From positions 1 through 38,420 of the forward strand of contig JAJZID010000004.1 of assembly GCA_021810705.1 (NCBI GenBank): a DNA stretch of 38,420 nucleotides. Reading direction: 5' to 3'. The notes beneath the pieces are model-generated. The model was given only the letters and a program-made list of their open reading frames with translations, was not told where the DNA came from and did not search any database. The position numbers were made by a program, and so were the translations under genes. Source of the DNA: Actinomycetes bacterium (GTDB taxonomy: Bacteria; Actinomycetota; Thermoleophilia; Solirubrobacterales; Solirubrobacteraceae). Position 1 is the stretch's first letter, and the number at the start of each line of letters is the position of its first letter. Of this stretch, positions 1 through 25,944 are shown one piece after another.

Positions 1-85
1 TGGCCCTTGGATGGCTCCTCCAGCGAGCTCGTCGGCTCTATTCACACGGGTCAAAGTCGCCATTTGCAGGGCGTTCCGAGTGTGA

Positions 86-127
<42 letters not shown>

Positions 128-536
128 GCTTGCCGAAGTGTCCCAGCAGTCCTCTCAACGACCCGAAAACGCTTGAAACACTGGGTTCACGGAGATTCCT
201 TCGGACACCGCTGGACTCGTGAACCCAACCTGATGGCCCCTAGATGGCCCCTCGGGGACCATCCCCTGCTCCAGCCGGCTGAACTGGGGCGCTACTGGGA
301 TTTTAAGTCGCGCGCGCGACTAATGTGACGGGCCGAAGATGCCGCCGCCCGAATCGACCAACCTCAGACCGTCGCCGGTACCACGATTGGACAGAGGGAC
401 GAGGCGGGCCTCCGGCGCCCGGCCGGCGCGCGCGTGGCTGGTGGCTGGCCACCACGTCCCGTCGCTGGCGTAGTGTTGCGCTGTGCAGGAGAACCTCACA
501 GCGACCAGAACCACGCGCGTGGGCGGTTGAATCCGG

Positions 537-1523
537 ATGGCTAACGCGAATCAACTCAAGGCGCTGGTCAAGAGCCACGCAGATGGCGACGACACCCGGT
601 TTTACTCCGTCGCGCTGCAGGTGGCGGCCGGCGCCGCGCGCAGCGGCCAGGCGCACTTCGCCCAGGATCTCCGGGATCTGATCGATGAGCTGCGCAAGAA
701 CAGCGAGCAGGGCGCCTCGAAGCGGGGTGGTCCGGTTCCGGTCGCGCAGCCGCGTGGAGACCTCGCGGGGCTTCTGTCGGTCTCCTATCCGTCGACCAGG
801 ATGGCGGATCTCGTACTCGATCCCGAGGTCCGCGCCTCCCTCGACCGGGTGATCGTCGAGCAACGTCAGCACGATCGGCTCCGCGCCAAAGGCTTCCGAC
901 CGTTGCGTCGCGTCCTGCTGACCGGGCCGCCTGGGACCGGCAAGACCATGTCCGCCAGCGCCCTGGCGGGAGAGCTCCGACTGCCGCTTTTCGTGATCCG
1001 ACTGGACGGGCTGATCACGAAGTTCATGGGCGAGACCGCCGCGAAGCTGCGCCTCGTCTTCGACGCGCTCGCCGAGACGCGCGGGGTGTATCTGTTCGAT
1101 GAGGTCGACGCACTCGGCGGCGAGCGCGGCCGCGATAACGACGTCGGCGAGATCCGCCGGGTGCTGAACTCGTTCCTGCAGTTCCTCGAACAAGACCAGT
1201 CAGACAGCCTGCTTGTCGCCGCTACCAACCACCCGCAGCTGCTCGACCGCGCGATGTTCCGACGCTTCGACGCGGTGATCGACTACCCGCTGCCGACCGC
1301 GCCAATCGCCCGCGACGTGATCCGCAACCGACTCGCGGGCGTCCGGCTGGGACGCGTCACTTGGACCCAGATCGACAAGGCGGCGGTCGGTTTGAGTCAC
1401 GGCGAGATCACGCTCGCCGCCGAACGGGCGGCAAAGGACACGATCCTCGCCGAGGACGAATCAGTCGGAACGGGCCGGCTGGTCGCAGCCCTGAGCGAGC
1501 GGCACTCGCGCACCAACTCGTAA
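537..1523 (+). CDS. ietA: AAA-family ATPase, IetA-like component of an IetAS-type system
   Basis: Walker A GPPGTGKT, Walker B VYLFDEVDAL, AAA C-terminal region; immediately followed (3-nt gap) by a subtilisin-like protease gene. Confidence 0.8.
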   Translation: MANANQLKALVKSHADGDDTRFYSVALQVAAGAARSGQAHFAQDLRDLIDELRKNSEQGASKRGGPVPVAQPRGDLAGLLSVSYPSTRMADLVLDPEVRASLDRVIVEQRQHDRLRAKGFRPLRRVLLTGPPGTGKTMSASALAGELRLPLFVIRLDGLITKFMGETAAKLRLVFDALAETRGVYLFDEVDALGGERGRDNDVGEIRRVLNSFLQFLEQDQSDSLLVAATNHPQLLDRAMFRRFDAVIDYPLPTAPIARDVIRNRLAGVRLGRVTWTQIDKAAVGLSHGEITLAAERAAKDTILAEDESVGTGRLVAALSERHSRTNS

Positions 1524-1526
1524 GCG

Positions 1527-3977
1527 ATGGCGGAGCGCGACCGGCCTCACATCCTCATCAGAGGAGGCGCCGAGACGGAGCCATACACCCGCCCGCCAGG
1601 TGGCGGCGATCGAGACCCGGTGACCCGGCCCGCGAACCCGGGTGCGCATGTCGCGGCCCTGATCGCCGAACTCAATGAGAGCGCCGACACGGCCACTGCG
1701 CTGAGAGGTGCGCTCTCCGACGACCTACCGAGGGCCGACGGGATCTTCATCACGTTTGAGTCGTTCCCGGAGGTCGAGCTCGCGCTTCAGTCGCTCGATC
1801 CTCAACGCGGCCGACACCACCCCGAACTGGTCGCCGTGCGCTCAATACAGACCCCAGAAGGGATCCGCCAGCAGGCGACCGTGTTCGTCCCAGACGGAAA
1901 GCTCGGCTACTTCCTGGATCGCCTGCAGGCATACGCGGACACCGTCGAGGAGCCGAAAACGAAGAACCGGAACCTCGTCGACAGGATCGCGTCGATCGGC
2001 GTCGCAGCGCTCGAGCAGCTCTGGACGGACGCTCCAGAGGACTTCCCTGAGCCCGAATCCGAGGTGTGGTGGGAGCTGTGGTTACGCCGCCGAGAGGGCG
2101 ACGAGCCGGTGCGGGTCAGGCAGTTCGCGGAGGCGATCGGCGCGCAAATGGGGGAGCTCACGCTCGCGTTTGCCGACCGGACCGTGATGCTGATTCGTAC
2201 CAGTGCGGCGCGACTGAGCGCCGCCCTGGGCGTGCTCGATGACCTCGCAGAGGTTCGGAAGCCCGCCGCTCCGGGCGTGTTGCTTTCGCTCGAGCCGCCG
2301 ACCGAGCAGCATGACTGGGTGCAGGATCTGGCTGCACGAACGACACCCGCCGCGCAGGACGCGCCCGCGGTGGCCGTTCTGGACACGGGCACTTACCGGG
2401 AACACCCACTCCTTGAGGGCTCGCTGGCCACGGCTGATTGCCATGCCGCCGACAGCGCGTGGGGCGTCGAGGACCACGATGGGCACGGGACTGAGATGGC
2501 CGGTCTTGCTCTATACGGCAGCGTCGACGACGCTGTCGTGAGCGGCGAACCGGTGCAGCTAGGCCACCGACTGGAGTCGGTCAAGATCGTGCCTGCGCCG
2601 CCGGACGAGACTCCACCGCACCTATATGGAGCAGTCACGGCCACCGCCGCAAGCGTGGTCGAGATCCAGGCGCCGGACCGGCAGAGGGTATTTTCGCTCG
2701 CGATAACGGCCGATTGGAACACCGTCCCGGCGGAGGCAGATCGTCAGCTTGGGCAGCCAACCTCGTGGTCAGCGTCGATCGACGCGCTCGCAGCCGGCCT
2801 TCAGATAGACGTCGACGACGACGGCCTGCTGTACCTCAACGAGGAGCAGTTGGCCGCTCGACGCCTGTTCCTGATCTCGGCAGGGAACGTCCTTGACTAT
2901 GAGGACGAGCACCTTGCCCGAAGCGACGTCGAGCCGATCGAAGACCCCGCCCAGGCGTGGAACGCACTGACGATCGGCGCACACACCGAGCTGACCGACG
3001 CGAGTAGTGGCCCCGGTTTCGGGGGCTGGACCCCACTGGCACCGGAGGGCGAGCTGTCGCCGTTCAGTCGAACAGCGGTTTTGTTCGAGCGGATCTGGCC
3101 GCACAAACCCGATGTCGTACTTGAGGGCGGCAACGTCGCCCGATCACCAGCCGGCACCGACTTCGACACGCCCGAGACGCTGCAACTGCTCACGACCAAG
3201 GCGCTGACGGGCCAGGATCAACGGCTGCTCACGGTCACAAACGCGACCAGCGCCGCAACCGCACAAGCCGGCTTCTTGGCCGGCTCGATCCTCGCTGACA
3301 TACCCGCCCTCTGGCCCGAGACGGTTCGCGCGCTGATCGTGCATTCCGCCGAATGGACTGCGGCGATGCAGGCCCGATTCGACGGCGCCCCAACACGAGC
3401 GCAGAAACGCGCGCTCTTCCGCCGCTACGGCATGGGCGTACCTGACCTGCGGCGCGCGACCCGCAGCGCGACCGACGCGCTGACTCTGATCGCCGAAGAG
3501 GTCATCCATCCCTTCGACGGGGATGGGAAGACCCGCGAGATGCACCTTCACGCGCTGCCCTGGCCAACCGATGCGCTGGCTGGCCTCGGCGATGCCGAGG
3601 TCCGGCTGCGTATCACGCTCTCCTACTTCATCGAACCGAACCCCGCGCGGCGTGGTTGGGCTCACCGGTACAGCTACGCCTCACACGGCCTCCGGTTCGC
3701 GGTACGCCAACCAACTGAGACGACCGAGGACTTCCGCAAGCGCGTCAACAAGCAAGCGCGCGCAGCGGATGAGGGAAGCCCGGACATCGACAGCGACGCC
3801 AACGAATGGTTCTTCGGCCCCGATCTGCGAACAGCCGGCTCGCTGCACACCGACATCTGGACGGGGACAGCAGCCGATCTCGCCGAGCGGAGCGTGATCG
3901 GCGTGTTCCCGGTCGGGGCTGGTGGAAGGAACGTAAGGACCGCGACCACAGCGGCCGCGGCGCGCGCTACGCCCTGA
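1527..3977 (+). CDS. ietS: Subtilisin-like (S8) serine protease, IetS-like; probably frameshifted near its 3' end (intact frame would run to 4066)
   Basis: Asp (VAVLDTGTY), His (DHDGHGTEMAG) and Ser (TNATSAATAQAG) catalytic motifs. A plausible C-terminus (GWWKERK...RYALIASIDTSDQTVDLWTPVAQQIG) lies in another frame. Confidence 0.82.
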   Translation: MAERDRPHILIRGGAETEPYTRPPGGGDRDPVTRPANPGAHVAALIAELNESADTATALRGALSDDLPRADGIFITFESFPEVELALQSLDPQRGRHHPELVAVRSIQTPEGIRQQATVFVPDGKLGYFLDRLQAYADTVEEPKTKNRNLVDRIASIGVAALEQLWTDAPEDFPEPESEVWWELWLRRREGDEPVRVRQFAEAIGAQMGELTLAFADRTVMLIRTSAARLSAALGVLDDLAEVRKPAAPGVLLSLEPPTEQHDWVQDLAARTTPAAQDAPAVAVLDTGTYREHPLLEGSLATADCHAADSAWGVEDHDGHGTEMAGLALYGSVDDAVVSGEPVQLGHRLESVKIVPAPPDETPPHLYGAVTATAASVVEIQAPDRQRVFSLAITADWNTVPAEADRQLGQPTSWSASIDALAAGLQIDVDDDGLLYLNEEQLAARRLFLISAGNVLDYEDEHLARSDVEPIEDPAQAWNALTIGAHTELTDASSGPGFGGWTPLAPEGELSPFSRTAVLFERIWPHKPDVVLEGGNVARSPAGTDFDTPETLQLLTTKALTGQDQRLLTVTNATSAATAQAGFLAGSILADIPALWPETVRALIVHSAEWTAAMQARFDGAPTRAQKRALFRRYGMGVPDLRRATRSATDALTLIAEEVIHPFDGDGKTREMHLHALPWPTDALAGLGDAEVRLRITLSYFIEPNPARRGWAHRYSYASHGLRFAVRQPTETTEDFRKRVNKQARAADEGSPDIDSDANEWFFGPDLRTAGSLHTDIWTGTAADLAERSVIGVFPVGAGGRNVRTATTAAAARATP

Positions 3978-4120
3978 TCGCGTCGATCGATACGTCCGAT
4001 CAGACGGTCGACCTCTGGACCCCGGTGGCACAACAGATCGGTGTTCAAATCGACATCGACATCTGACACGGCAGCGTCTGCGCCTGCCCGCGCTCACGGC
4101 AACGGGCGCTCCCACCGCCT

Positions 4121-5320
4121 TTAGGCAGCGGCCGTGATCGAAGATCGACGGGCTTTGAGGATGGCGTCGACGGCGGGCATTTGGGGCGCGTCTTCGAGTT
4201 CGTCTATGACGTGTCCGTAGGTGTCGAGGGTGAGGCGAGCGCCGTGACCGAGTTGCTTGGCGACGTAGTGAACAGAGCGGCCCTCGTGCAGCAGCAGTGA
4301 AGCGAAGCTGTGACGCAGCGCATACGGGTGGCTCTCTTCGATGCCGACGGCGTCGAGCATTCGCTTGAAGTTGCGGGCGCGCCAGTTATCCCAATCGTCC
4401 TTGGTCCAAGGCTGGCCCTCGTGATCGGGGAAGATCAGCGCGTTTGCACGCGGGCGTCCAGCGGCGAGCTTGAACTCGCGCAGGTCAGCGGCCAACGGTT
4501 CGAGGAGACGCACAGTCCGGGCATAGGTGTTCTTGGTGGACTTGATCTGACCGTCCGCGTCGGCGCGCTGGACTAGAAGCGTGTTCTCGCGGACGTCGAC
4601 CCACCGCAGCGCCAACGCCTCCTGTGGGCGCAGTCCTGAGTAGGCAAGGACCGAGATCATGGTCGCGTCGCGATGGCGGACGTAGGGGGTTCCGGGTGCC
4701 GGAACGGTGTAGGCACGGCGCCGGCGCCTCCCCGACTTGGACGCTGCGACCTCTGTGGGCGCGGGGTTTCTGGCGGCTTCGCGCAGCGCCTCGACTGTCG
4801 CTGGCGCCAGCGGGCGGACCTCCTCCTTGTGCGGCAGCTTCGCCTTGCGGACCGCTCGCGCCGGGTTGATCGTGAGGTGGCCGGCCTGAACTGCGGTCTG
4901 CAGGATCCCACTCAACAGCACTAGAGACTTGCGAATCGAGGTGGGACCAGCGCCGCTGCGCAGGCGCTCCGCCTGCCAGCGGGCGATGACCTCGACCGTG
5001 ATGTCGCGCAACGGGTGAGAGCCGAGGAAGGGCGAGAGGTGCTTGGCGTAGAGCTGGCGGTACGTCTTGCGGGTACTGACGGCCAAGTTGGCGGCATGCA
5101 CGGGCACCCAGGTCTGCGCCATGTACTCGTTGAGCGTGACCTTCCCGCTGTCGATCCCGGCCAGGTGTCCGAGCCGTTTGCGCAGCTGTAGGTCGGCGCC
5201 GAAGGTCTCGGCGTCACCTTTGGTGTCGAAGGTGCGGGTGCGTCGGTGGCCCTCGGGGTCGCGCCAGCGGACCCGGTAGACCGTCTTGCCTGCTTTGGTT
5301 GTGCGTCGCTCGATCTCCAT
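4121..5320 (-). CDS. int: Tyrosine recombinase / phage-type integrase
   Basis: 399 aa; LAYSGLRPQEALALRW and HPYALRHSFASLLLHEGRSVHYVAKQLGHGARLTLDTYGH (R..HxxR..H..Y) catalytic motifs. Confidence 0.95.
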   Translation of the reverse strand: MEIERRTTKAGKTVYRVRWRDPEGHRRTRTFDTKGDAETFGADLQLRKRLGHLAGIDSGKVTLNEYMAQTWVPVHAANLAVSTRKTYRQLYAKHLSPFLGSHPLRDITVEVIARWQAERLRSGAGPTSIRKSLVLLSGILQTAVQAGHLTINPARAVRKAKLPHKEEVRPLAPATVEALREAARNPAPTEVAASKSGRRRRRAYTVPAPGTPYVRHRDATMISVLAYSGLRPQEALALRWVDVRENTLLVQRADADGQIKSTKNTYARTVRLLEPLAADLREFKLAAGRPRANALIFPDHEGQPWTKDDWDNWRARNFKRMLDAVGIEESHPYALRHSFASLLLHEGRSVHYVAKQLGHGARLTLDTYGHVIDELEDAPQMPAVDAILKARRSSITAAA

Positions 5321-5324
5321 ACGA

Positions 5325-5375
5325 TCAGCCCGCGACGACGGCCTCGAGCATGGCCTGTTCGATGTGCATGTTCAC
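5325..5375 (-). CDS. 16-codon micro-ORF (MNMHIEQAMLEAVVAG) between the excisionase-like gene and int
   Basis: GTG start overlaps the upstream stop as GTGA; stop lies 4 nt before the int ATG. Short, so tentative. Confidence 0.35.
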   Translation of the reverse strand: MNMHIEQAMLEAVVAG

Positions 5376-5761
5376 TCCAGTTCGCTCCATGCGGCGTCGA
5401 CCGCGAGATTGGTTGATGTAGTGGCCGCCTCCCGTCGCGGCCGACGGGACGCTCGTCTCGCAGCGGGCCGGCGCTGGGCGAGCCAGTGGTCGATGTCCTC
5501 ACGGCACAGCCGCGGAGAGCGGCCGATATATCCGACGGTGGGAAGCTCTCCAGCGTGGATCGCTCGCTGGAGGGTCTTGGTCGCGGCCTGGGCGTAGTCC
5601 GCGGCATCTTTCACCGTCATCAGCGGCTCAGGCTCGGACAGCGCCTCAAGCGCGGCCAGTCGCGTGTCGAGCGCCTCCAGGTATCCCGCAAGCGCCACTA
5701 GCGGGTTCGCGGCGTCGAGCACAGGAAGTCTCGCTGTTATGGCCTCGGCGATCTGCGGCAT
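5372..5761 (-). CDS. Helix-turn-helix / excisionase-like DNA-binding protein
   Basis: LMTVKDAADYAQAATKTLQRAIHAGELPTVGYIGRSPRLCREDIDHWLAQ resembles excisionase-family HTH; directly upstream of int. Confidence 0.8.
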   Translation of the reverse strand: MPQIAEAITARLPVLDAANPLVALAGYLEALDTRLAALEALSEPEPLMTVKDAADYAQAATKTLQRAIHAGELPTVGYIGRSPRLCREDIDHWLAQRRPAARRASRRPRREAATTSTNLAVDAAWSELE

Positions 5762-6079
5762 CTACTCATCCGAGGGCCGGTGGTCCACTGCCACCGTCCG
5801 CCGCGGTTCAGTCGAGATGGAGACGGTTAGTCCAAGAGCGAGCTGCACGTTGGTGCGCTCGAAGCCGTCTGCCTCGAGTAGGGCGGCCGCGCCGATCTCG
5901 GTTGGGTCGAGGCTGTCGATGTGGGCGGCCATGTCAGCCAACCACAGCACCGCGCTCGCGCCGCTGCGATCGAGGTCAAAGAGGCAATGGCCACCGAGGT
6001 GTGAGATGCCGTGGTGGCAGAGCTTCCGAGCTGCTCGCCGCGCTGCGCTCTCGCGCTGGGGAACGCTGTAGCGAGTCAT
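5762..6079 (-). CDS. Hypothetical protein (105 aa) of the mobile element
   Basis: MTRYSVPQRESAARRAARKLCHHGISHLGGHCLFDLDRSG...; stop TAG abuts the ATG of the next gene and start overlaps the previous stop (ATGA). Confidence 0.6.
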   Translation of the reverse strand: MTRYSVPQRESAARRAARKLCHHGISHLGGHCLFDLDRSGASAVLWLADMAAHIDSLDPTEIGAAALLEADGFERTNVQLALGLTVSISTEPRRTVAVDHRPSDE

Positions 6080-6384
6080 CCCGGCTGCGCCGCCTCGCTG
6101 GTGGCACGTCGAGATCGGCCGGCTGTGAGCGTCGCGGCGCGGAGCCGGGTGCGTTCGGCGTCGTGCCGCATGGCCAGCAGCACGTCGCGTGGATCGACCG
6201 CGTGACCCAGCTCGAGCGCCTGCGCGATCACCTCGCTCTCCGGTCGAGGGCGAGCGCGTCCTGCGTTGCGGCGCAGCGCGCACGGCAGCCAAACGGCGCA
6301 GCGAGGAGTGTTGTGGGGACGGGACCGATCCAGCGTTGGCGCGCCGCACACCACGCACGGACGGGGCTTCAGCGGACGGGTCAT
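6076..6384 (-). CDS. Small protein with CxxC-type motif (CVVCGAP), hypothetical
   Basis: 102 aa, 4-nt overlaps with both neighbours. Confidence 0.6.
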   Translation of the reverse strand: MTRPLKPRPCVVCGAPTLDRSRPHNTPRCAVWLPCALRRNAGRARPRPESEVIAQALELGHAVDPRDVLLAMRHDAERTRLRAATLTAGRSRRATSEAAQPG

Positions 6385-7040
6385 GACGACGGTTCTTCCC
6401 AGGGCGCAGCGCAGCGGCCGAGGGCGACGTCGACGCCTGCACGCATGTAGCTGCTGTGGATGGGAACGAGGGTCAGGTCGCCGCCGAGCTCGAGGACCTC
6501 GCGCGCGATCTCTGCGATGAACCGGTCCGCACGCCAGGATCCGCGCACCGTCTGGTCCTTGCCGAGGAAGTCCGTCTCCCTGTAGACGCGACCGAAGTAG
6601 TCGAGGTGGTGATAGGCGTCGGCGAGGTCGCGGGCGCGCGCGATGCCCGGCTCGACGGAGCGCTGCGCGGCGAGTCCGGCGAGCAGTTGCGGCCAGGTCG
6701 CCTTCTGCGCAGAGAGCGGGACATTGCAGCCACGGCTGTTGATGTCGAGGCGGTACCCGTCACCGCAGATCCCACCGGTGATCTCGCGCGCGGGTTTGCG
6801 GGCGAGGTCCGGCACCGCACGGGTGGATGCCCAGCGGATTTGCTCCTCCGCATAGGCGAGCATCCGTAGCCACGTCCTGTCATGCCGGATTGCTGGCGGT
6901 CGTCGCGGGATGTGAGTGTGCGCGGGCCGGTCGACGCGAATGAACTGCTGGCCGCCGGCCTGGATCACCTTGACCGGCACGTCGAGCGCCTCGAAGGTCT
7001 GCCAGTCAAGCGATAGCTGGCCGTCGTTCAGAGCAGGCAC
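6381..7040 (-). CDS. Hypothetical protein (219 aa) of the mobile element
   Basis: Long coding-like ORF, overlaps neighbours at 6381-6384 and 7028-7040. Confidence 0.65.
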   Translation of the reverse strand: MPALNDGQLSLDWQTFEALDVPVKVIQAGGQQFIRVDRPAHTHIPRRPPAIRHDRTWLRMLAYAEEQIRWASTRAVPDLARKPAREITGGICGDGYRLDINSRGCNVPLSAQKATWPQLLAGLAAQRSVEPGIARARDLADAYHHLDYFGRVYRETDFLGKDQTVRGSWRADRFIAEIAREVLELGGDLTLVPIHSSYMRAGVDVALGRCAAPWEEPSS

Positions 7041-7672
7041 AGCTGACCTCCCGCGAGCTCGCGCACCTCCGGGTTGGCGGCGAGGTCGTAGCCGCCGCCG
7101 GGTGCGCGTCCCGGAACGTGACGGCCCGCGATCGGCGAGCGCGCGGTCCTGACCGGCCCTCCGCGGTCGAGCCAGCCTTCTGGCAGCAGATGGCCCCAGC
7201 GCTGGTACCAGCGAGCGACGAGTTGTTTGTGGGAGGTCGGGCTGTCCAGGCTGGGCGGCGCGCCGACGACAGGGATCTCGCGCCAGCCGGGGTGGGTGTG
7301 GTCGTGGGCGTCCTCGACCGCCAGGTTCTCCGCCTCACGGCCCCTTTGCGCCTGGTCGGAGACCCAGCCACACCCGAGGCAGGCACCGCGGTAGCCGAGG
7401 TGGTCCTTCATCGCCCGGTAGTCCTCACCGTCGACGGCGAGCCAGTGGCAGATCAGGATGGTCGGCTCGCACAGTCGTGCGTGTCCTGGCGCGGGGCGCT
7501 TGGCGTGGTGCTCCGAGAGGCCCGAGAGGCCGCCGGGGTGGGTGGTGGCGATCGACCAGGCGGCCGCCATCACCCGCCGGTCGTGCTCCTCCTTGCTTCC
7601 CTGCCACATCGAACGCAGCCGCGCGTGCTGATCGAGTAGATCCCACAAGACGATGCTCTCACTTGTAGACAT
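7028..7672 (-). CDS. Hypothetical protein (214 aa; possibly a DUF6349-like mobile-element protein)
   Basis: MSTSESIVLWDLLDQHARLRSMWQGSKEEHDRRVMAAAW...; start codon lies inside the 36-bp palindrome. Family assignment is a weak recollection only. Confidence 0.65.
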   Translation of the reverse strand: MSTSESIVLWDLLDQHARLRSMWQGSKEEHDRRVMAAAWSIATTHPGGLSGLSEHHAKRPAPGHARLCEPTILICHWLAVDGEDYRAMKDHLGYRGACLGCGWVSDQAQRGREAENLAVEDAHDHTHPGWREIPVVGAPPSLDSPTSHKQLVARWYQRWGHLLPEGWLDRGGPVRTARSPIAGRHVPGRAPGGGYDLAANPEVRELAGGQLCLL

Positions 7673-7697
7673 GCTAACATGTTAGCATGTCTACAAG
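7662..7697. promoter_or_regulatory. Perfect 36-bp palindrome containing both divergent start codons and mirrored TGCTAACAT extended -10 motifs
   Basis: CTTGTAGACATGCTAACA/TGTTAGCATGTCTACAAG, zero spacer and zero mismatches; checked base by base. Confidence 0.9.
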
Positions 7698-7941
7698 ACA
7701 ACATGCGACCGTAGAGACAGAGCGGGAGATGACTGATAGGCAGGCAGTTGAGTTGCTGACCCTGCTGGTCAGCTACGGCTCGATCGACGAGGTGCCATCA
7801 CCTGCGCTCGGCTTGCTGACAGTCCGAGAGCTGGTCGGCGAGCTGATCGACTCGTTACCCCGGACGGATCACTCGATCGGCTGGACACCACAGCTGCGCG
7901 AGCGCGTCGAGGCCCTCTACGGCCGAGGCGCGATGACCTGA
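7687..7941 (+). CDS. Small hypothetical protein (84 aa)
   Basis: ATG within the palindrome; MSTRQHATVETEREMTDRQAVELLTLLVSYGS... Confidence 0.6.
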   Translation: MSTRQHATVETEREMTDRQAVELLTLLVSYGSIDEVPSPALGLLTVRELVGELIDSLPRTDHSIGWTPQLRERVEALYGRGAMT

Positions 7942-7964
7942 CATCGCCCCGCTGAGTGGCGATG
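7942..7964 (+). terminator. Hairpin immediately after the 84-aa ORF stop (possible terminator, no U tract)
   Basis: CATCGCC-N9-GGCGATG, 7-bp perfect stem. Confidence 0.35.
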
Positions 7965-8041
7965 GACCAACCAGAGGCCATCAGTGGTTGCAGCCACTCG
8001 CGGCCTCCGACAAAACCACCACCATCCGGAGGTAACCCTTG

Positions 8042-8386
8042 ATGAGTACCCAGACAACCCAGCGACATACTGGACAGACCCGGACGGCGACACGCGAGCG
8101 GCGCCGCGGAACTCCCCCGGAGCGGACCAACGCCGACGCCGTTGACCGGACGATCCTCGAGGTCGTCGATCGCGGCGGCCTGCACATCACCGAGCACGAG
8201 CTCCGCTACCAGCTGCGTCGTCGCAACGTAGACCTGGTCGCCCTGCTGGAGCGAATGATGGAGCTGGAGCACCGCGGGCTCACGGAGAGCACCCTCTGCT
8301 TCCGCCTCACACGGGCCGGCATCGAGTCATTGCCCGATGGCCACGAGCGCCCGCTCGTGGCCGGCTACCGATCCGACTGGCGCTAA
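8042..8386 (+). CDS. Hypothetical protein (114 aa), winged-helix-like composition
   Basis: GGAGG Shine-Dalgarno about 9 nt upstream of ATG; coding-like sequence. Confidence 0.6.
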   Translation: MSTQTTQRHTGQTRTATRERRRGTPPERTNADAVDRTILEVVDRGGLHITEHELRYQLRRRNVDLVALLERMMELEHRGLTESTLCFRLTRAGIESLPDGHERPLVAGYRSDWR

Positions 8387-8619
8387 GCGGGAGAAGCCGA
8401 GCTGCGCTGTCCTTCGTGGCAGCGCAGCTCGACGGTGCGTCGTCCGCCCGGGATCGCCTTGCACCACGGTCCAGAACCTGTCGGCCAGCTCCCACTCAGC
8501 AGCACGACGAGACCCAGTGCCTCCTCAAGAGCCTGATGCGGAGGGCTCACGTAGTTCACGGCCGGGCTCTTCGTCAGTTGCTCGTTCCGTTCCTCGCTGA
8601 CCACAACGACCCAGCTCAC
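8383..8619 (-). CDS. Small hypothetical protein (78 aa)
   Basis: ATGA overlap with upstream ORF. Confidence 0.45.
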   Translation of the reverse strand: MSWVVVVSEERNEQLTKSPAVNYVSPPHQALEEALGLVVLLSGSWPTGSGPWCKAIPGGRRTVELRCHEGQRSSASPA

Positions 8620-8837
8620 GGCCGCGCCCCCCGCTGGTGTTCCACCTCACTGGACCGTCCGCCGGCCGCGAGCAGGTCCAGGCTCCGGGCGCATTCGCTG
8701 AAAGACAGGGTGCAAGTCCGCAGTGCCCGGTCGAGCAGCAACCGTTCAAAACTCACCGGCATCTCGGCAACAGCGCACTCCAGCTCCACGATCGCGCGCT
8801 GCAGGTGTGAGCAGACACGTTCACGCCAGCACATCAC
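8616..8837 (-). CDS. Small hypothetical protein (73 aa)
   Basis: GTGA overlap with upstream 47-aa ORF and ATGA overlap with downstream ORF; coding-like helical sequence. Confidence 0.5.
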   Translation of the reverse strand: MMCWRERVCSHLQRAIVELECAVAEMPVSFERLLLDRALRTCTLSFSECARSLDLLAAGGRSSEVEHQRGARP

Positions 8838-8977
8838 GTAAAGCAGTGGCCGCCGTCGCAGGTCACGTCACTTGCGAAGGTCAGCTGCTCGTGGGCGTGT
8901 AAAACGCGCAGCGTCGTGCCTTCACGAGCGCCCTGGTTGGTGAAGTACACGGCCCCGCATCCGATGTAGCGACTCAT
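8834..8977 (-). CDS. Small ORF (47 aa), MSRYIGCGAVYFTNQGAREGTTLRVLHAHEQLTFASDVTCDGGHCFT
   Basis: Read directly from the minus strand; ATGA overlap with upstream gene stop and GTGA overlap downstream. Below the ORF-track length cutoff. Confidence 0.5.
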   Translation of the reverse strand: MSRYIGCGAVYFTNQGAREGTTLRVLHAHEQLTFASDVTCDGGHCFT

Positions 8978-9345
8978 GCGGACGCGGCCCCCAGTGCGGC
9001 AGCCGGCACGTCGCTACTGTCGCTTCCGTCCTCCGGCACCGGGCTACGCTCCGTCGTCGCGCGGCCGCCAGGCGCGGTCGGCCGCGAGCTGCGCTTCCCG
9101 GTCTTTCCTCGGCCAGTGAGCTCTGCTGCCAGCCCGGTGCCGACTAGCCCGACGAGCGCCTGATACGCCGCGTCGGCGCCAGCCTGCGCGTCCCCGAGCG
9201 CCCTCTGTGCGACGGCGACATCGTGCTCGGCGTTGGTGACCTTCTCCTCGGCGTGGGCCAGTGCGACGAGCGCGTCGCGTTCCTGGTTGTAGAGATCCTT
9301 GAGCCGATCGAGCTGCTCGGCTGGGACTGCGACCTTGCGTGGCAT
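8974..9345 (-). CDS. Hypothetical coiled-coil protein (open frame extends upstream to 9636)
   Basis: MPRKVAVPAEQLDRLKDLYNQERDALVALAHAEEKVTNAEHDVAVAQRALGDAQ... heptad-like helical sequence. Confidence 0.55.
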   Translation of the reverse strand: MPRKVAVPAEQLDRLKDLYNQERDALVALAHAEEKVTNAEHDVAVAQRALGDAQAGADAAYQALVGLVGTGLAAELTGRGKTGKRSSRPTAPGGRATTERSPVPEDGSDSSDVPAAALGAASA

Positions 9346-9819
9346 GCGTACTCTGCTCCTGTGGGCGGGTTCCGCCGACGCGACCGTCGGCCTCACCCAT
9401 ACCTGGACACCTGGTCCGCTGCCACCTGGCGGCAGGGAATCGATCGCAGCCAGGTCGTTGAGGCATGCCGCAACGTCGCTACCGGCCGCTGGATTGCAAT
9501 TGGCCTCTTCGGCGGCGGCGTCGGTCAACCGTCCGGGCTGCGTTCCGGCCGGCAGCAGCAATACCTTCGGACGGCCTCGCGAATGTGCTGCGATCTCGCC
9601 AGTCCTGGGTTCCAGCACGTCGCGCGAGGTGGACACGCTGCCCAGCCCGACGCCTTGCTCAGGCCCTTGCGCTCCTGGTAGACGACCTCCACATCACTGT
9701 GAGGTTCTCGCGGTCACGGTCTGCGGACGATCCGGGGCAGCCTCTGACACCCGTCCATCGTCGCGCCCCAGATCCCACCAGACTCACGATCGCAGCCAAC
9801 AGCTCTGATGGGCTCGGGG

Positions 9820-10128
9820 TCAACTGCCAAAGATCTCGCTGAACTGATCTTGCGCGTCTTCGCTGCCGGTGACGGTGAGCGAGATTTCTTGTGTGTCGGC
9901 AGTGATGGTCATTGTGAGGAATGGGCAGCAGTCGGCCTCGAGCGCGACGAGTTCGTGTAGGGCATGTTCGAGTTGGGGGTCGGCGGTAAAGGTCAGCCGT
10001 CGGCCACCGTTGATGGATGTTCGTCTGTGCGGGTGGGTGCGCAAGAGTTCGCTGACGGTCGCTGTGCGTGCTGTCAGCGCAGCGGGCGAGAGACTGCACC
10101 GTGTTTGGCAGGTGTTCTCTTTGGTCAT
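9820..10128 (-). CDS. Small protein with DCCPF motif, probably metal-related
   Basis: ELVALEADCCPFLTMTITADTQEISLTVTG; located downstream of the BASS transporter. Confidence 0.55.
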   Translation of the reverse strand: MTKENTCQTRCSLSPAALTARTATVSELLRTHPHRRTSINGGRRLTFTADPQLEHALHELVALEADCCPFLTMTITADTQEISLTVTGSEDAQDQFSEIFGS

Positions 10129-10202
10129 GGGTCCTCGGCGGGTCTGGTGCTTGGGGTTTCGATCCAGTCCTTTGCCGCGGGTCGGCTTGAGGTCAAGTCC
10201 GC

Positions 10203-11144
10203 TCATACGAGTCGGGGATGGGGTGAGCGGCGGCGCATCCAGGTTGCTGCGAGTGCGCCGGCGAGGAGCATGAGCGCACCGTAGATGCCGCCGACGCTCG
10301 CGGCGGCGGGGCTGAATGCTTGGGTTGCGAGTGCGGCAGCGACGGCGAAGTCCCGCAGCCCGGTCGTGAACGCGACTGCGCCGGGGTCTAGCGCGTGTGT
10401 GCGTAGCCGCTGTGAGAGGAGCAGTCCGAGGGCGGCGGAGGCGATCATGAACGCGGCACTGCCGAGGATCTCCTGGGCGAGCCGGTGGCCGCCGTGGACG
10501 TTGCTGACTGCTGCGTAGAGCAACAGGCAGACGGTCACGGCCGCGAGTCCGTTCAGTGAGCCCTCTGCGCGCTTGAGCGCCGGTTGGCGGCCGCGGAGCA
10601 GCAGCCCGGCAGCCAGCGGTGCGAGCACCACCAGCGAGAAGCGGCCCAACAGGCTGAGGCTGCCGCCGGGACCGGTGGTGTGCGCGAGTAGCCCAGCGAG
10701 CACCGGGCCGAGGATTGCCGAGCAGATCAGCGACGCGGTCAGGATCCCGAGTCCGAGCACCGAGTCTCCGCCCGCCAAGCCGATCAGCCCGACGCTCGCG
10801 ACCTCGGTGGAGGCCAGACCGAGCGAGAGGATCCCGTCACGGACCTGCCCGTCGAACCCGCGACTGATCAGCCACGCCACCCCGGTCAACACCAGCACCA
10901 CGCTCAGTGCGATGACCGCGATCACGGGCATGCGACCGCGCAGCGCGTGCAGGTCTCGGGGGTTGATCTGTAGCGCGGTGAACAGCACCAGCGCGGCCAG
11001 CAGCAGATCGGAGCGGCGGGCGAGCGCATGCCACGGAACGAGCAGCGCCGCGATCACAGCTGCGATCGCTATCGGTGCGATGTGATCGGCGATCCACTCC
11101 CCAGCCTGCCCGACTCGACCGAGCGGACTCACCGCGCCGTCCAT
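10203..11144 (-). CDS. Bile acid:sodium symporter (BASS/BART superfamily)-like transporter
   Basis: About 10 hydrophobic segments, ALVLFTALQINPRDL and GLRDFAVAAALATQAFSP motifs. Confidence 0.7.
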   Translation of the reverse strand: MDGAVSPLGRVGQAGEWIADHIAPIAIAAVIAALLVPWHALARRSDLLLAALVLFTALQINPRDLHALRGRMPVIAVIALSVVLVLTGVAWLISRGFDGQVRDGILSLGLASTEVASVGLIGLAGGDSVLGLGILTASLICSAILGPVLAGLLAHTTGPGGSLSLLGRFSLVVLAPLAAGLLLRGRQPALKRAEGSLNGLAAVTVCLLLYAAVSNVHGGHRLAQEILGSAAFMIASAALGLLLSQRLRTHALDPGAVAFTTGLRDFAVAAALATQAFSPAAASVGGIYGALMLLAGALAATWMRRRSPHPRLV

Positions 11145-15334: not shown

Positions 15335-16756
15335 CTACTCCCGATCGCCGCTGGCGACGGTCGCGGCCGCGAGGAGCGGGTTCGCTTTGACCCAGGCTTG
15401 GGCGCCCATTTGGACCGTGTCCCAGGGCGACCCAAGTGGTGGCGTGTAAGCGAGGTCCAGGTCAGAGATCTGCTCGATCGTCATGCCGTTGTGGATGGCG
15501 GTCGCGGCGATGTCGACGCGCTTGGCGACTTCGGAGCCGAGATGTCCAAGGAGTTGGAGTCCGAGGAGGCGGCCGTCGCGGCGGTCGGCTGTGTAGCGCA
15601 TCTGGATCGGGTGGCCGCCGGGGTAGTAGGCCTTGTGGTCATCGGCTTGGGAGGCGACAGTGACAGGGTCGAAGTCGGCGTCTTGGGCTTCGTGGTCGCG
15701 CAGGCCGGTGCGAGCGATGACGATCTCGAAGACCTTGACGACCTGTGTGCCGAGGCTGCCGGCGTACTCGCGGTCGCGGCCGAGCGCGTTCTCAGCGGCG
15801 ATCCGTCCCTGCTTATGCGCGGTGGTGCCGAGCGGCAGGTAGGTGGTACCGAGCAGCTGGTGGTGAGTGGTGACGCAGTCGCCCGCGGCGAACACGTGCG
15901 GGAGGTTGGTACGCATCCGCCGGTCGACGGCAATCGCGCCCTTGAACCCCAGCTCGGCGCCGGCGCCGGCGGCCAGCTCGACGTCCGGCCGGACGCCGAC
16001 GACGACCAGGACGATGTCGGCGGGATAGGTGCGGTCGGTGCCGTCGGGAGCGGTGGCCTGGACTGCCAGCGGCGCGCCGGTGGCCGGGTCGGTCTGCTCG
16101 ATCGCGTTGACCTTCGTGCCGGTCGCGACCGTCACGCCGTTGCGTTCAAGCTCAGCGTGGACGAGCGCGCCGAGTTCTGGGTCGACGGTGGGAAGGACCT
16201 CGGGCAACTGTTCGATCTGGGTGACTTGTAGTCCCCGGCCGGTCAGGCCTTCGGCCATCTCCAGACCGATGTAGCCGGCGCCGACGATTACCGCACGCTT
16301 GATCCCCGCACGCTCGAGCGTGCGAGTCAGCGCGAAGGTGTCGTCCATCGAGTGCAGCAGGTGTACGCCCTCGTCGGGGCCGAGCCGGTCCAATCCGGTG
16401 ATCGGGGGGCGGACGGAGACCGCACCGGTGCCTACGACGAGCTCGTCGTAGGCAAGTTCCTCCTCGGTCCCGTCCTTGTCGACAACCAGTAGCTTGCGAC
16501 CCTCGACATTGATCTTCTTGGCCAGGGTGTCGAGGCGTAGCTGCATGCCGGTCGCTTCGAGGTCGGCGTAGGTGCGGTGGGCGAGGTTTCGCCAGTGCGT
16601 GACCTCTCCGGAGATGTAGTAGGGGATGCCGCAGATCGAGAAGTTCGGGTAGGCGTCGGCGACGACGACTGTGACTTCTGTGGTGGGGTCGAGTTCGCGG
16701 GCGCGTAGCGCGGCGCTGATGCCGGCGTCGCTGCCGCCGATCGCGATCAGATGCAT
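15335..16756 (-). CDS. FAD-dependent pyridine nucleotide-disulfide oxidoreductase (NADH oxidase / CoA-disulfide reductase-like)
   Basis: MHLIAIGGSDAGISAALRARE, NFSICGIPYYISGEV, AVIVGAGYIGLEMAEGL, HVFAAGDCV. Confidence 0.93.
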   Translation of the reverse strand: MHLIAIGGSDAGISAALRARELDPTTEVTVVVADAYPNFSICGIPYYISGEVTHWRNLAHRTYADLEATGMQLRLDTLAKKINVEGRKLLVVDKDGTEEELAYDELVVGTGAVSVRPPITGLDRLGPDEGVHLLHSMDDTFALTRTLERAGIKRAVIVGAGYIGLEMAEGLTGRGLQVTQIEQLPEVLPTVDPELGALVHAELERNGVTVATGTKVNAIEQTDPATGAPLAVQATAPDGTDRTYPADIVLVVVGVRPDVELAAGAGAELGFKGAIAVDRRMRTNLPHVFAAGDCVTTHHQLLGTTYLPLGTTAHKQGRIAAENALGRDREYAGSLGTQVVKVFEIVIARTGLRDHEAQDADFDPVTVASQADDHKAYYPGGHPIQMRYTADRRDGRLLGLQLLGHLGSEVAKRVDIAATAIHNGMTIEQISDLDLAYTPPLGSPWDTVQMGAQAWVKANPLLAAATVASGDRE

Positions 16757-16785
16757 CGAGCAGTGTCTCCTGGGGTTCGGTTTGG

Positions 16786-17546
16786 TTAGGCGCGCGCGGG
16801 TTCCGCGCGCTGGTTGGTGAACTCGCGGTCGCCGGTCCGGTCGTGCGGCATGATCGCCTCGGCTGCCTCCGCTGGCGTGATGTCCGGGTACAGCACACGG
16901 ATCACGCCTACCGCGAGTGCCCCGCCGACGAGTTGCGCGACGACGTAGGCGGGAACTGACGCCGGGGCGATCCCGGCGAACGTGTCGGAGAACATCCGGC
17001 CGATGCTGATCGCGGGGTTCGCGAAGCTCGTTGAGCTCGTGAACCAGTACGCAGCACCGATATACGCACCCACCGCGGCGGGTGCCATCGAAGAGCGGTG
17101 GCTGCGCGCGAGCGCAAAGATCACGAGGATTAACCCGAGCGTCGCGACGATCTCGCCAAGTAGGTGCGCCGGGCTGGCGCGGTGGTGCGCAGCGATCGTG
17201 ACCGCGCTCAGCCCGAACATCGCGTTGGCGACAACCGCGCCAAAGCTGCAACCGGCGATCTGAGCAGGGACGTAGGCCGCCGTGTCACGCCATGACAGTC
17301 CACCGAAGCTGGCGTCCACCAGGGAGACGACTGGGTTGACGTGTGCGCCGGAGACGGGGCCGAACATCAGGATGATCGCGAACAGCCCGACCGCGGTCGC
17401 GGCCGCGTTCTCAAACAGCTCCAGACCGACATCGTTGGAGAGAGCTGTACGGCGGCGATCCCGGAGCCGATCACCAGCGCGGCCAGGAACGCAGAGCCGA
17501 GGAACTCCGCGAACAGCCGCCGCCACAGCGACGCTTCGACGCTCAC
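16786..17546 (-). pseudogene. MIP/aquaporin-family channel with apparent frameshift near 17435-17446
   Basis: NPVVSL and NPAISIGRMFSD (two NPA-type boxes). N-terminus MSVEASLWRRLFAEFLGSAFLAALVIGSGIAAVQLSP is in a different frame; GTG overlaps the arsC stop (GTGA). Confidence 0.75.
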
Positions 17547-21057: not shown

Positions 21058-21525
21058 TCACCGTTCCGCACGACGGGCGAGCACCCGCAGCTCCGGGCGG
21101 CTCACACCGGTCAGGCTCGGCGCTTGGATCTCCCACGCTTCGAGCACGTCGCGGCTGGCGGCCGCCAGCGACCCATTGGCCTCCGCGAGCGCCTGCCCGA
21201 CCTCGATGAGCGTCGCCGCCCATCTGACCTCTGCAGCCTCGATCTGCTTACGCCGGTAGGTCCAGTTCACCACCACCTGCCGACCAGCTCGATCCCGCGG
21301 ACGCGACTCGTAGGAGGAGTGCCTCGCCGCCCAAGCCCTTTGGCGTGCGCTCAGCCCCCGGCTGACCCTGACGAGCTCTGCCTCACGCGCCTGCCGCCGC
21401 CGCTCCAGCCGCTCCTCGGCCTGCTCCACCAGACACCGCGCCCCATGCCAGCGCTCCAACGCCTCGACACGTCGCGCCCACATCCGCTCATGCCCAGCCA
21501 ACAGACTCTCTACATCCACCGCCAT
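21058..21525 (-). CDS. Coiled-coil protein divergent from the relaxase; possible mobilization accessory
   Basis: MAVDVESLLAGHERMWARRVEALERWHGARCLVEQAEERLERRRQAREAEL... Confidence 0.55.
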   Translation of the reverse strand: MAVDVESLLAGHERMWARRVEALERWHGARCLVEQAEERLERRRQAREAELVRVSRGLSARQRAWAARHSSYESRPRDRAGRQVVVNWTYRRKQIEAAEVRWAATLIEVGQALAEANGSLAAASRDVLEAWEIQAPSLTGVSRPELRVLARRAER

Positions 21526-21711
21526 GCCATCAGCCTAACGCCGCCGACAACCGACACGACCGCCCTCTACCTCCCGAGCGACAAGCCAACGACCAACGAC
21601 CGACCCACACGGCTGGCATTCGAGGACAGCCCAGCGCCGCCGAGACCCGACACGCGTCGTCGTCCGTCCAGCCTGAGTCGGGTGGCAGCGGACCAGCAGG
21701 CCCATAGAGGT

Positions 21712-24700
21712 GTGTTGACGATCCGTAGATTGACGCTCGGATCGGGCTACAAGTACCTCACCGAGTCGATCGCCGTCGGCGACGGGCCAGCGCCGAAGGA
21801 GACGCCCCTGACCCGCTATTACGAGGCAACCGGCACCCCTCCCGGCGTGTGGATGGGCGCCGGTCTCGGCGGTCTGGACGACGGCCGCGGCGTCCGATCC
21901 GGTAGCCAGGTCACCCCCGAGCAGCTCTACAACATGCTCGGCGTCTGCGTTGACCCCGTTTCCGGTGAGGCCTGCGGCCGTAAGCCAAACGCAGAGCCAG
22001 AGCCGCTTCAGACACGGATCGCCCGGCGCGTCGCACGCCTCTCAGACTCCCTGGATGAGACCGCCCGGACGGTGCAGGCGCTTGAGATCGAGGCCCAGGA
22101 ACGCGCCAGAACGGAGAGGTTCAGGCCGCCGGTCGCGGCGTTTGATCTCACGTTCTCGCCGCAGAAGTCCGTCAGCGTGGCGTGGGCGCTGGCGGATCGG
22201 GAGACGCAGGCGGCGATGTATGAATGCCATCGGCAGGCAATCGCCATCACCCTGAAGTACGCGGAGGCGAACACCTTCCACTCCCGCTCCGGCACCAACG
22301 GCATCCTTCAGGAGGAGCTCGACGGGATCATCGCCGCTGCTTTTACGCACTACGACAGCCGCTCCGGCGATCCTCAGCTCCACGATCACGTCATCGTTTG
22401 GAACCGCGCGCGTTCCCGGTCTGACGGGGCCTGGCGGACGCTCGATAGCCGTGGCCTCTACAAGCAGGTCGTAGCGCTCTCGGAAGTCTTCGACGGCGTG
22501 CTGGAGGATCTTCTGACCGACCAGCTCGGCGTTGGGTGGCAGCGGATGGAGACCCGCGGCGGGCAACTCAAGGTCGAGATCCAGGGTGTCGGCGAGCAGC
22601 TCCTGACCGAGTTCTCCCAGCGCCGCGGCGAGATGGACCTCGTCGAGGACAAGCTGACCAAGGCGTTCCTGGAGCGCAACGGGCATCTGCCCTCACCGGT
22701 CCAGCGCCGCCGGATCGCGCAGCAGGCGAACCTCCGAACCCGCCATCAGAAGCGACCCCGCAGCCTTGCGGAAATGTCGTTGGACTGGCGGGCGCGTGCG
22801 ACCCCGATGGTCGGCGAGACCGAGGCGTGGGTGCAGTCCCTCAAACACCGCAGCGACCTGCCGCCGCTACGAGCCGCCGATCTCGGGCAGGAGATCCTCG
22901 CCGACCTCGCCACGCTCGCACGCGATCACAGCACCGAACGGCGCGCGACATTCACCCGCGCGAACCTGCTCGCGGAGGTTCACCGCCAGCTCCGTGGAGT
23001 CCGCTTCGCCGATCACACCGAACGCCTCGCCGTCGCCGAGCGCGCAGTCGACATCGCGCTCCAAGAGACCGTGATGGTCTCAGCACCCGAGCTGCACCAC
23101 GTCCCGCACCGCTACCGGCGAGCCGACGGGACCACGATGCTGCGCCCCGCCGACCAGCTGCTCTACACCACCGAGACGCTGCTGGACGCCGAACAGCGAC
23201 TGCTTGACGCCGGGCGCAGCACCGGCGCGCCGACCGTGCCCGTCGCGACCGTGGCCGACGTCGCTGCCAAGAACCTTCCCGGCCGCGACTACGGCCTCAG
23301 CGTCGACCAGGCAGTCGCGGTACAGCAGATCGTCACCAGCGGTCGCCAGCTCGACCTACTGATCGGTCCCGCCGGGACCGGGAAGAGCACGACGATGGCG
23401 GGCCTGCGGGCCGCCTGGGAGCGTGAACACGGAGCCGGGTCGGTGCTCGGTCTCGCGCCCTCGGCAGCGGCCGCGGAGGTGCTCGCCCACGAACTCGGAA
23501 TCGACGCCGAGAACACCTCCAAATGGCTGTTCGAGCACCGCCGCAACGACCAACGCGAACACGAACTCGCCGCACTCGCATCTGCCTCAACCGACACGTC
23601 ACATCCGCGTCATGCCACCGCCACCAACGGTGCTCGGCAACGCGAGCTACGGGTCGCGCTCGACCGATGGTCGCTCAAGCCCGGCCAGATCGTGATCGTC
23701 GACGAAGCTTCGCTCGCCGGCACCTTCGCCCTCGAGGAGCTAACAAGCGCCGCCGAAGCCGCCGGCGCCAAGGTGCTGCTCGTCGGCGACCAGCACCAGC
23801 TCTCCGGGGTCGAAGCCGGCGGCATGTTCCGCGCACTGATCCACGACCGCGGCACGCACATCGCCGAACTGGAGGACGTACGCAGGTTCACCAACGACTG
23901 GGAAAAGGACGCCTCACTGCGGCTCCGCCGCGGACAAGACGACGTGATCGAGGTCTACGACGCTCACGGCAGGATCAGCTCCGGCACCCGCGAGGAACTG
24001 ATCGCCGAGCTGTACGGACGCTGGAAAGAGGACGTAGACGCCGGGCTGACATCCCTCATGATCGCCGAGAACGGCGAGACGGTCGCCGAACTCAACCGTC
24101 GCGCGCGCGCCGACCGAGTAGCCGCCGGGCACGTCCTCGCCAACGGCGTCGAGCTCAGCGGCGACCAGCGCGCCGGCGTCGGCGATGAGGTCGTAACCCG
24201 ACAGAACGAAAGACGCATCAGCACCCGACGCGGCTGGGTCAAGAACGGAGACCGCTGGACCGTGACCGCCACACATCCCGACGGTGGCCTGGCGGTGAAA
24301 CGTGCCAGCGGCCGGGGAAAGGTCGAACTACCGGCAGCCTATGTAGCCGAGCATGTCGAGCTCGCCTACGCCACCACCGCCCACCGTGCGCAAGGAAGAA
24401 CGGTCGACACCGCACACGCAATGATCGCCTCCGGCAGCAGCCGCGAGGCGCTCTACGTGGCCGTCACCCGAGGCCGCAACAGCAACCGGCTTTACGTCGA
24501 CGTCGCCTACGACCCGGACCCGGCGAGCGGTCATGGCGGCGCCATCGAAGAGGAAACCGCACACGCTGTCCTCTCCGGCGTGCTCGCCAATCAGGGCGCC
24601 GCCGTGGCCGCGCACGCACAGATCACGGCCAGCTGGGACAGCGCAGAATCGCTCGCACGACTACACGCTGAGTACCTCACGATCGCACGAGCCGCCCAAG

Positions 24701-25383
24701 CCAACCGCTGGGAAACCCTCGTCAAGAGCATCGGACTCACCGGCGACCAGGCCCAGCAAGCGATCAGGTCCGACGCTTACGGCCCGCTCGTGGCGGCCCT
24801 TCAAGACGCCGAAGCCCGCGGCCTTGACATTGACCGTGCCCTGCCGCAGCTAGTCAGAGCACGCGCGCTCGCCGATGCTGATGACATCGCTGCGGTTCTG
24901 CACTGGCGCGTGGACGCGTGGGTGGAGAAAGGCGCGAGCCGCCATCGCTTGCCTCCCCAGCTGATCGTCGGGCTCATCCCGCGCGCGCAACGCGTGGACG
25001 ATCTAGACCTACGACAAGCACTCGAGGAGCGGGCGGATGCAATGGAAAGCCGGGCAACGGCGCTCCTACAAGCGGCGCTCGGAACACAGGCCGGCTGGCT
25101 GCAGCAGCTCGGCACGCCGCCGGTCGACGAGGGCGCACGCGTTCAGTGGCTGCGCCAGGCCCGGATCGTAGTTGCCTACCGCGACCGCTGGGGCATCTGG
25201 TCCTCGGAGCCTGTAGGCGACTCAGCGCAAAGCATCGAACAGACGTCTCACCGCCGCCGCGCCGCAGCCGCATCCGCACGGGCGAAAGCGATCGCCGCGC
25301 GGACCCACCATGACCTCATGGATGCGCAAGCACGACAGATCACCCAGAGCGAGATCTCGCCAGCACCCGAGTTGGGTCGATGA
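21712..25383 (+). CDS. MOB_F (TrwC/TraA-like) conjugative relaxase with C-terminal helicase
   Basis: N-terminal GSGYKYLTESIAVGDG, AFDLTFSPQKSVSVAWALAD, DPQLHDHVIVWNRA; Walker A LIGPAGTGKSTT, VIVDEASLAG, AYATTAHRAQGRTVD. Confidence 0.95.
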   Translation: MLTIRRLTLGSGYKYLTESIAVGDGPAPKETPLTRYYEATGTPPGVWMGAGLGGLDDGRGVRSGSQVTPEQLYNMLGVCVDPVSGEACGRKPNAEPEPLQTRIARRVARLSDSLDETARTVQALEIEAQERARTERFRPPVAAFDLTFSPQKSVSVAWALADRETQAAMYECHRQAIAITLKYAEANTFHSRSGTNGILQEELDGIIAAAFTHYDSRSGDPQLHDHVIVWNRARSRSDGAWRTLDSRGLYKQVVALSEVFDGVLEDLLTDQLGVGWQRMETRGGQLKVEIQGVGEQLLTEFSQRRGEMDLVEDKLTKAFLERNGHLPSPVQRRRIAQQANLRTRHQKRPRSLAEMSLDWRARATPMVGETEAWVQSLKHRSDLPPLRAADLGQEILADLATLARDHSTERRATFTRANLLAEVHRQLRGVRFADHTERLAVAERAVDIALQETVMVSAPELHHVPHRYRRADGTTMLRPADQLLYTTETLLDAEQRLLDAGRSTGAPTVPVATVADVAAKNLPGRDYGLSVDQAVAVQQIVTSGRQLDLLIGPAGTGKSTTMAGLRAAWEREHGAGSVLGLAPSAAAAEVLAHELGIDAENTSKWLFEHRRNDQREHELAALASASTDTSHPRHATATNGARQRELRVALDRWSLKPGQIVIVDEASLAGTFALEELTSAAEAAGAKVLLVGDQHQLSGVEAGGMFRALIHDRGTHIAELEDVRRFTNDWEKDASLRLRRGQDDVIEVYDAHGRISSGTREELIAELYGRWKEDVDAGLTSLMIAENGETVAELNRRARADRVAAGHVLANGVELSGDQRAGVGDEVVTRQNERRISTRRGWVKNGDRWTVTATHPDGGLAVKRASGRGKVELPAAYVAEHVELAYATTAHRAQGRTVDTAHAMIASGSSREALYVAVTRGRNSNRLYVDVAYDPDPASGHGGAIEEETAHAVLSGVLANQGAAVAAHAQITASWDSAESLARLHAEYLTIARAAQANRWETLVKSIGLTGDQAQQAIRSDAYGPLVAALQDAEARGLDIDRALPQLVRARALADADDIAAVLHWRVDAWVEKGASRHRLPPQLIVGLIPRAQRVDDLDLRQALEERADAMESRATALLQAALGTQAGWLQQLGTPPVDEGARVQWLRQARIVVAYRDRWGIWSSEPVGDSAQSIEQTSHRRRAAAASARAKAIAARTHHDLMDAQARQITQSEISPAPELGR

Positions 25384-25551
25384 CCACCTACCGAGCAGTT
25401 GGGGCATCTGCGGTGAGCGCGCCTCCGGTCTCCCCTCGCATAAGCTCCGCTCTCCCCATTGCCGCCCGCCGCGGTTCCGGAGTTGGGCCATTGTCGAGTG
25501 ACAGGACGCCAAATCCCCGCTGCCGCGTTGATGCCGGCCCTCAACGTCGCT

Positions 25552-25944
25552 TCAGCCTGCGCCGTTGAGGGTCTCCCTCACCGCGATTCGCCAACCGTCG
25601 GGAGTGCATCGCATCGTCTGACGGATTCTCGCGACATGCAGTATTCGTGGCGGCCCGTTGGGGAGGACGACCAGCATCACGCTGTGGACGGTCGGGTCCT
25701 CCTCGCTGTCGTCGATCGTGGGGTTTAGCGTCAAGTGCAAGGTTCCGGACGGTTCCTCAAACCACGCGTACGCCACGGTCGCGGCGAGCTCCGCCCGACC
25801 AGCGGCGGTGCCCGTCGAGTCGGTCATGACGCCGTCCTCGGTGAACAGCTCGACGTATCCCTCCGCGTCTCGGGCGGAAGCGCATTCGTCAGCCTCGGTG
25901 ACGAGCTGCAGAATCGCGAGAGAGTCTTCTGCGCTGAGGCTCAC
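25552..25944 (-). CDS. SnoaL/NTF2-like protein
   Basis: LSAEDSLAILQLVTEADECASARDAEGYVELFTEDGVMTDSTGTAAGRAELAA...; GTG start preferred, frame open to 25992. Confidence 0.75.
   Translation of the reverse strand: MSLSAEDSLAILQLVTEADECASARDAEGYVELFTEDGVMTDSTGTAAGRAELAATVAYAWFEEPSGTLHLTLNPTIDDSEEDPTVHSVMLVVLPNGPPRILHVARIRQTMRCTPDGWRIAVRETLNGAG

Follow-up and report, generated by a model that had tools for sequence, protein, structure and literature searches.

What an exact 36-bp palindrome does when it holds the predicted start codons of two divergent genes of an integrated mobile element is the question raised by positions 7662–7697 of the window analyzed here (i.e., the whole 38,420-nt stretch of DNA). 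This sequence (CTTGTAGACATGCTAACA/TGTTAGCATGTCTACAAG, no strand) consists of two 18-bp arms without a spacer, just as a previous sequence-only reading had described it, and is the longest perfect palindrome in the window, the runner-up having 13-bp arms. Given the base composition of the window, such a palindrome would be expected by chance ~4e-6 times in 38 kb and 2.5e-4 times in the 2.39-Mb assembly. Its interior also proved to be as described earlier: the minus-strand ATG (7672–7670) and the plus-strand ATG (7687–7689) are separated by 14 bp, and on each strand a TGC-TAACAT motif (i.e., an extended –10 element) ends 6 nt before the ATG. These two elements, located at 7672–7680 (plus strand, rightward transcription) and 7679–7687 (minus strand, leftward transcription), face each other, and their TAACAT hexamers (7675–7680 on the plus strand and 7684–7679 on the minus strand) overlap across the strands by 2 bp. 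Together with the flanking CAT and ATG they make up an inner 20-bp symmetric unit (CATGCTAACATGTTAGCATG, 7670–7689, no strand). No clear –35 element was found here on either strand. Moreover, the region from 3500 to 10500 yielded no Rfam match, and an RNA starting at either predicted transcriptional start site (TSS) would contain just one half of the palindrome.

The only close homologous locus found, with the same gene pair, is that of the congeneric metagenome-assembled genome (MAG) G312, and the conservation argument rests on these two sequences. In a gap-free alignment, the left arm is identical at 18/18 positions, the inner right arm at 8/9, and the outer right arm at 4/9, followed by 18/31 for the leader and 183/213 from position 7729 onward. 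The right arm as a whole is therefore identical at 12/18 positions, and the palindrome in G312 itself also pairs at 12/18. Both extended –10 elements nevertheless survive in G312 (identical rightward, TGCTAACAT, and as TGCTATCAT leftward), with both hexamers still conforming to TANNNT, whereas the adjoining leader has diverged to 58% identity. Since the left arm also encodes the start of the leftward gene, promoter conservation is confounded in that arm. The alignment further bears on whether the palindrome arose by chance or as an assembly artefact, which a single perfect copy on a MAG contig could suggest. Its flanks are colinear with G312 on both sides, gap-free through the palindrome, and its inner part is present in the contig of a different MAG; together with the expected number of 4e-6, this renders such an origin highly improbable. 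Elsewhere, positions 21067–31907 of the window match positions 3–10842 of G312 at 94.8% identity, with other blocks differing between these species by rearrangement or absence.

On the leftward side, the palindrome opens a gene for a 214-aa DUF6349 protein (7028–7672, minus strand; PF19876, E 6e-38) that is 84% identical to its G312 counterpart and is predicted to be leaderless. Its start is not preceded by a Shine-Dalgarno sequence (–0.3 kcal/mol), and the start itself, the N6 spacing after the –10 element, and the first five residues are all kept in G312, so that the leaderless hallmark of a TANNNT located 6–7 nt before a start devoid of a Shine-Dalgarno sequence is found in both genomes. 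This hallmark was also scored at the candidate starts of predicted genes in 20 contig pieces of the same genome plus the window, where 11 starts had a TANNNT ending 6 nt ahead of them and 9 had one ending 7 nt ahead, versus a background of 1.8 per spacing (Poisson p of 4e-6 and 1e-4). In 20 pieces of the congener G160, the corresponding counts were 14 and 22 versus roughly 2. The leaderless signal is thus genuine in this genus, in agreement with the signal published for Actinobacteria (PMC3160421; PMC3898074), of which M. tuberculosis is an established case, having TANNNT promoters and ~25% of its genes leaderless (PMC3898074). The palindrome resembles these actinobacterial leaderless promoters in having a TANNNT 6 nt before the ATG, no Shine-Dalgarno sequence, and no clear –35 element (PMC3898074, PMC3160421), but differs from them in that two such units face and overlap each other.

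The DUF6349 gene is the first of a tightly packed leftward run, in which it is followed by short genes without Pfam families, a gene for an excisionase-like HTH_17 protein (5372–5761, minus strand), and a gene for a tyrosine recombinase (integrase; 4121–5320, minus strand). Since the leftward reading frames overlap or almost abut, one transcript spanning DUF6349 to int is plausible. In G312 (L019:2674–4283), the same gene pair adjoins a different 495-aa recombinase-like frame without a Pfam match, beside a tRNA-Thr gene, and the module may therefore travel with different integration genes. DUF6349 proteins with 33–40% identity occur on actinobacterial plasmids, and no relative was found in phages.

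On the rightward side, the sequence-only reading had both proteins begin with M-S-T inside the palindrome. Although this is what the sequence spells, it was not confirmed that both are real starts, as protein conservation on this side begins at 7729. Specifically, the rightward frame counted from ATG 7687 comprises 84 codons and has no family assignment above threshold. However, this ATG, which should be conserved at the predicted TSS of a leaderless gene, is ATA in G312, where no in-frame start precedes the equivalent of 7729. Moreover, changes with respect to G312 are distributed over the three codon positions as 4/8/6 in 7687–7728 versus 12/2/16 from 7729 on (Fisher p = 0.003 for the second-position contrast), i.e., the former stretch bears no mark of coding constraint. 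The conserved rightward start is therefore 7729, giving a 70-aa protein with a helical model (7729–7941, plus strand), and 7687–7728 (plus strand) would be its leader or an optional 14-aa extension. Judging from this alignment, the M-S-T N-terminus of the rightward gene is specific to this genome. The modelled structure of the 84-aa protein resembles no PDB entry, and searching PDB by profile for clues to the rightward proteins likewise returned nothing significant. The next rightward gene (8042–8386, plus strand) encodes a 114-aa protein that has no family above threshold and a structure model too poor for use, and its homologues lie near ParA-like genes in G372 and G160.

Both genes could still be leaderless in this genome if ATG 7687 were the main rightward start and had been lost in G312. 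The TANNNT-N6-ATG arrangement is exact on both strands, and the Shine-Dalgarno match before the 7729 ATG (–7.7 kcal/mol here and –12.7 kcal/mol in G312) is weak and badly spaced here, abutting the ATG, so that 7729 is a weaker start in this genome than in G312. Divergent leaderless pairs are also known, as for prpD (Rv1130)/Rv1129c of M. tuberculosis, in which both TSSs were mapped to the start codon (PMC3898074); at the locus studied here the rightward start is doubtful, and an overlap of –10 elements is not described for the M. tuberculosis pair in the literature examined. Nevertheless, 11 of the first 14 codons are changed nonsynonymously, without a third-position bias in the changes, and this, along with the missing earlier start in G312, makes it unlikely that both genes are leaderless.

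On balance, the inner ~20–29 bp probably form a bidirectional promoter, with a leaderless leftward DUF6349 RNA and a rightward RNA carrying a ~42-nt leader up to 7729. This reading is supported by the sequence, by conservation in one relative, and by the genus-wide leaderless signal. Since the two opposite-strand extended –10 elements overlap by a shared AT (7679–7680), RNA polymerase would be able to load in either orientation, but never in both simultaneously. For the leftward RNA, the predicted first nucleotide is the A of the start codon of DUF6349 (7672), yielding a leaderless mRNA that probably extends along the tightly packed run as far as xis and int. The rightward RNA is predicted to begin near 7687 and would be translated mainly from ATG 7729, with ATG 7687 possibly supplying an extra leaderless start in this genome. 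It is the TSS positions, the mutual exclusion of polymerases, and the read-through along the operon that we infer here, and the predicted TSS spacing of 15 bp (7672 to 7687) derives from sequence only. The earlier interpretation of the locus was thus partly supported at the sequence level. Of its two mirrored leaderless-type promoters, the facing extended –10 elements and the leaderless-type DUF6349 start held, whereas ATG 7687 did not hold as a conserved start, and the proposed coupling of the two gene sets, those on the int/xis side and those running rightward, through a single promoter region was supported as well. That reading had also named a true rightward start at 7729 and a non-conserved palindrome as findings that would speak against it, which is what emerged for the rightward side and for the outer arms.

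Promoters that fire both ways from shared –10 elements have been established in E. coli, with reports from all prokaryotes, and polymerase occupies them in one orientation at a time (PMC12825309). The palindrome promoter looks like an exceptionally compact member of this known kind, with which it has in common the shared or overlapping –10 elements, the divergent RNAs, and a short pseudo-symmetric sequence. In contrast, its predicted TSSs have a spacing of 15 bp and its –10 elements overlap by 2 bp (the common TSS distances being 18, 10, and 23 bp, with small variations possible; PMC12825309), at least one of its RNAs is predicted to start on a start codon, and the full 36 bp are perfectly symmetric. 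Should the inner unit function in the proposed way, a divergent control region could hardly be smaller: one polymerase-binding site would choose between two mRNAs, at least one of them leaderless, and within the element the relative output of the int/xis side and the rightward genes would depend on it.

The inner geometry is also found elsewhere in the class. The pattern CATNNTANNATNNTANNATG (i.e., two facing TANNAT-N6-ATG units) occurred in 14/349 class genomes versus 2 for a control read backwards (p = 0.004 by a sign test that ignores relatedness, several of the genomes being congeneric). Among the matches in the 13 other genomes, 12 belong to one other family of the class and 11 lie at hisA, where the ATG of the pattern can start hisA in ten cases and the start is a few codons further in one. 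In five of these loci (L082–L085 and L092), the ATG within the 20-mer is the sole candidate hisA start. In seven of the hisA loci, the facing ATG is a possible start of a Trp-repressor-like gene, and Pfam assigned one such protein to Trp_repressor (E 9e-23) and two of the HisA proteins to His_biosynth. This shows that the CAT-N14-ATG arrangement is kept at a conserved gene, hisA, and the recurrence offers a metabolic gene at which the design could be put to the test. Where hisA faces the Trp-repressor-like gene (seven loci among L082–L092), the 14 bp between the ATGs lie in a near-symmetric sequence, e.g., CATGTTAATATGTTAACATG, and both ATGs have firmer support than those of the present locus. 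Tentatively, and with more doubt than conviction, we consider a recurrent near-symmetric 20-bp module of the class that would combine two overlapping –10 elements with the transcription starts and start codons of both genes (CAT-N14-ATG), and in which polymerase orientation, repressor binding, and leaderless initiation would compete, at Trp-repressor-like/hisA pairs and independently in the present mobile element.

In view of this inner geometry at the Trp-repressor-like/hisA pair, a single dimeric regulator is plausible in principle. The entire 36-bp palindrome might be an operator, bound by a regulator encoded in the element (dimeric or tandem) that would block the two promoters along with the two leaderless start codons. 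The perfect symmetry far exceeds chance, and the element encodes the HTH_17 protein as well as other small potential DNA binders. Moreover, the site between the Trp-repressor-like gene and hisA is a near-symmetric 20 bp in the same register, and TrpR/HisR operators are 20-bp palindromes at promoters (PMC9413887). Symmetry alone is no proof of an operator, however, because two facing TGnTAnnAT elements already make ~16 bp symmetric without any regulator. The likeness to TrpR/HisR operators is further limited by neither gene of the pair being a histidine gene, and the published HisR consensus differs from the present site. With no TrpR-family protein found in the genome itself (G000, 70% complete), G312, or G160, neither membership in a Trp-repressor regulon nor control by a host TrpR gained support. 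The HisR lineages mentioned in the passages of PMC9413887 consulted here do not include that of L082–L092.

An operator would also be expected to keep both arms in homologous loci. Because the outer right arm is not conserved (4/9 versus 18/31 in the adjacent leader, with the palindrome only 12/18 paired in G312), a 36-bp operator is disfavoured. The 24-bp core of the palindrome has no second site at ≤3 mismatches in the 2.39-Mb assembly, 399 class genomes showed no clear excess of a repeated operator over a reversed control at 3 mismatches, and a search of viral contigs returned nothing. The M. abscessus plasmid pGD21-1 does carry a long palindrome upstream of its DUF6349 gene, although a comparable one occurs at only this one of ten DUF6349 plasmid loci, and all in all we deem the operator improbable. 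The pGD21-1 palindrome (L015:2849–2891) is a near-perfect one of 43 bp, with 19-bp arms, a 5-bp spacer, and one mismatch, situated ~20 nt upstream of the DUF6349 gene, which also has a divergent neighbour. A general palindrome upstream of DUF6349 genes was rejected on the same count of 1/10, with one Brevibacterium hairpin being terminator-like.

The outer symmetry might instead be a mutational by-product, in which a template switch copied the first DUF6349 codons (ATGTCTACAAG) across and perfected an imperfect inner palindrome, the M-S-T of the rightward gene then being accidental. Within the palindrome, six positions differ from G312; all are in the right arm, none in the left, and at every one of them the present copy is the symmetric version. 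The stretch supposedly copied belongs to a coding sequence on the left, its right-hand counterpart in G312 being non-coding, and the facing TGnTAnnAT elements would have provided the initial ~16 bp of symmetry. Template-switch events that raise the arm identity of imperfect palindromes are known from E. coli and yeast (PMC7202029, PMC3820800). Against this, divergence from G312 is no greater in the outer right arm than in the neighbouring leader, which is not under constraint, and the two sequences fit both a gain by template switching here and decay of an ancestral perfect palindrome in G312. We give the template switch somewhat less than an even chance; it is compatible with the bidirectional-promoter explanation of the inner part. 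In the bidirectional-promoter reading, the outer arms completing the symmetry of the 36 bp are specific to this lineage, perhaps through template switching, and not required by the promoter.

Finally, the runner-up perfect palindrome of the window (TGCCTACGACGAGCTCGTCGTAGGCA, 16429–16454) lies within a long minus-strand frame (15335–17251) matching Pyr_redox_2, inside which ARAGORN also calls a 94-nt tRNA-Ala (16770–16863, plus strand) that is probably a false positive. A 20-bp inverted repeat with a 7-bp loop (28464–28510) is situated near the start of a 731-aa minus-strand frame (26319–28514).
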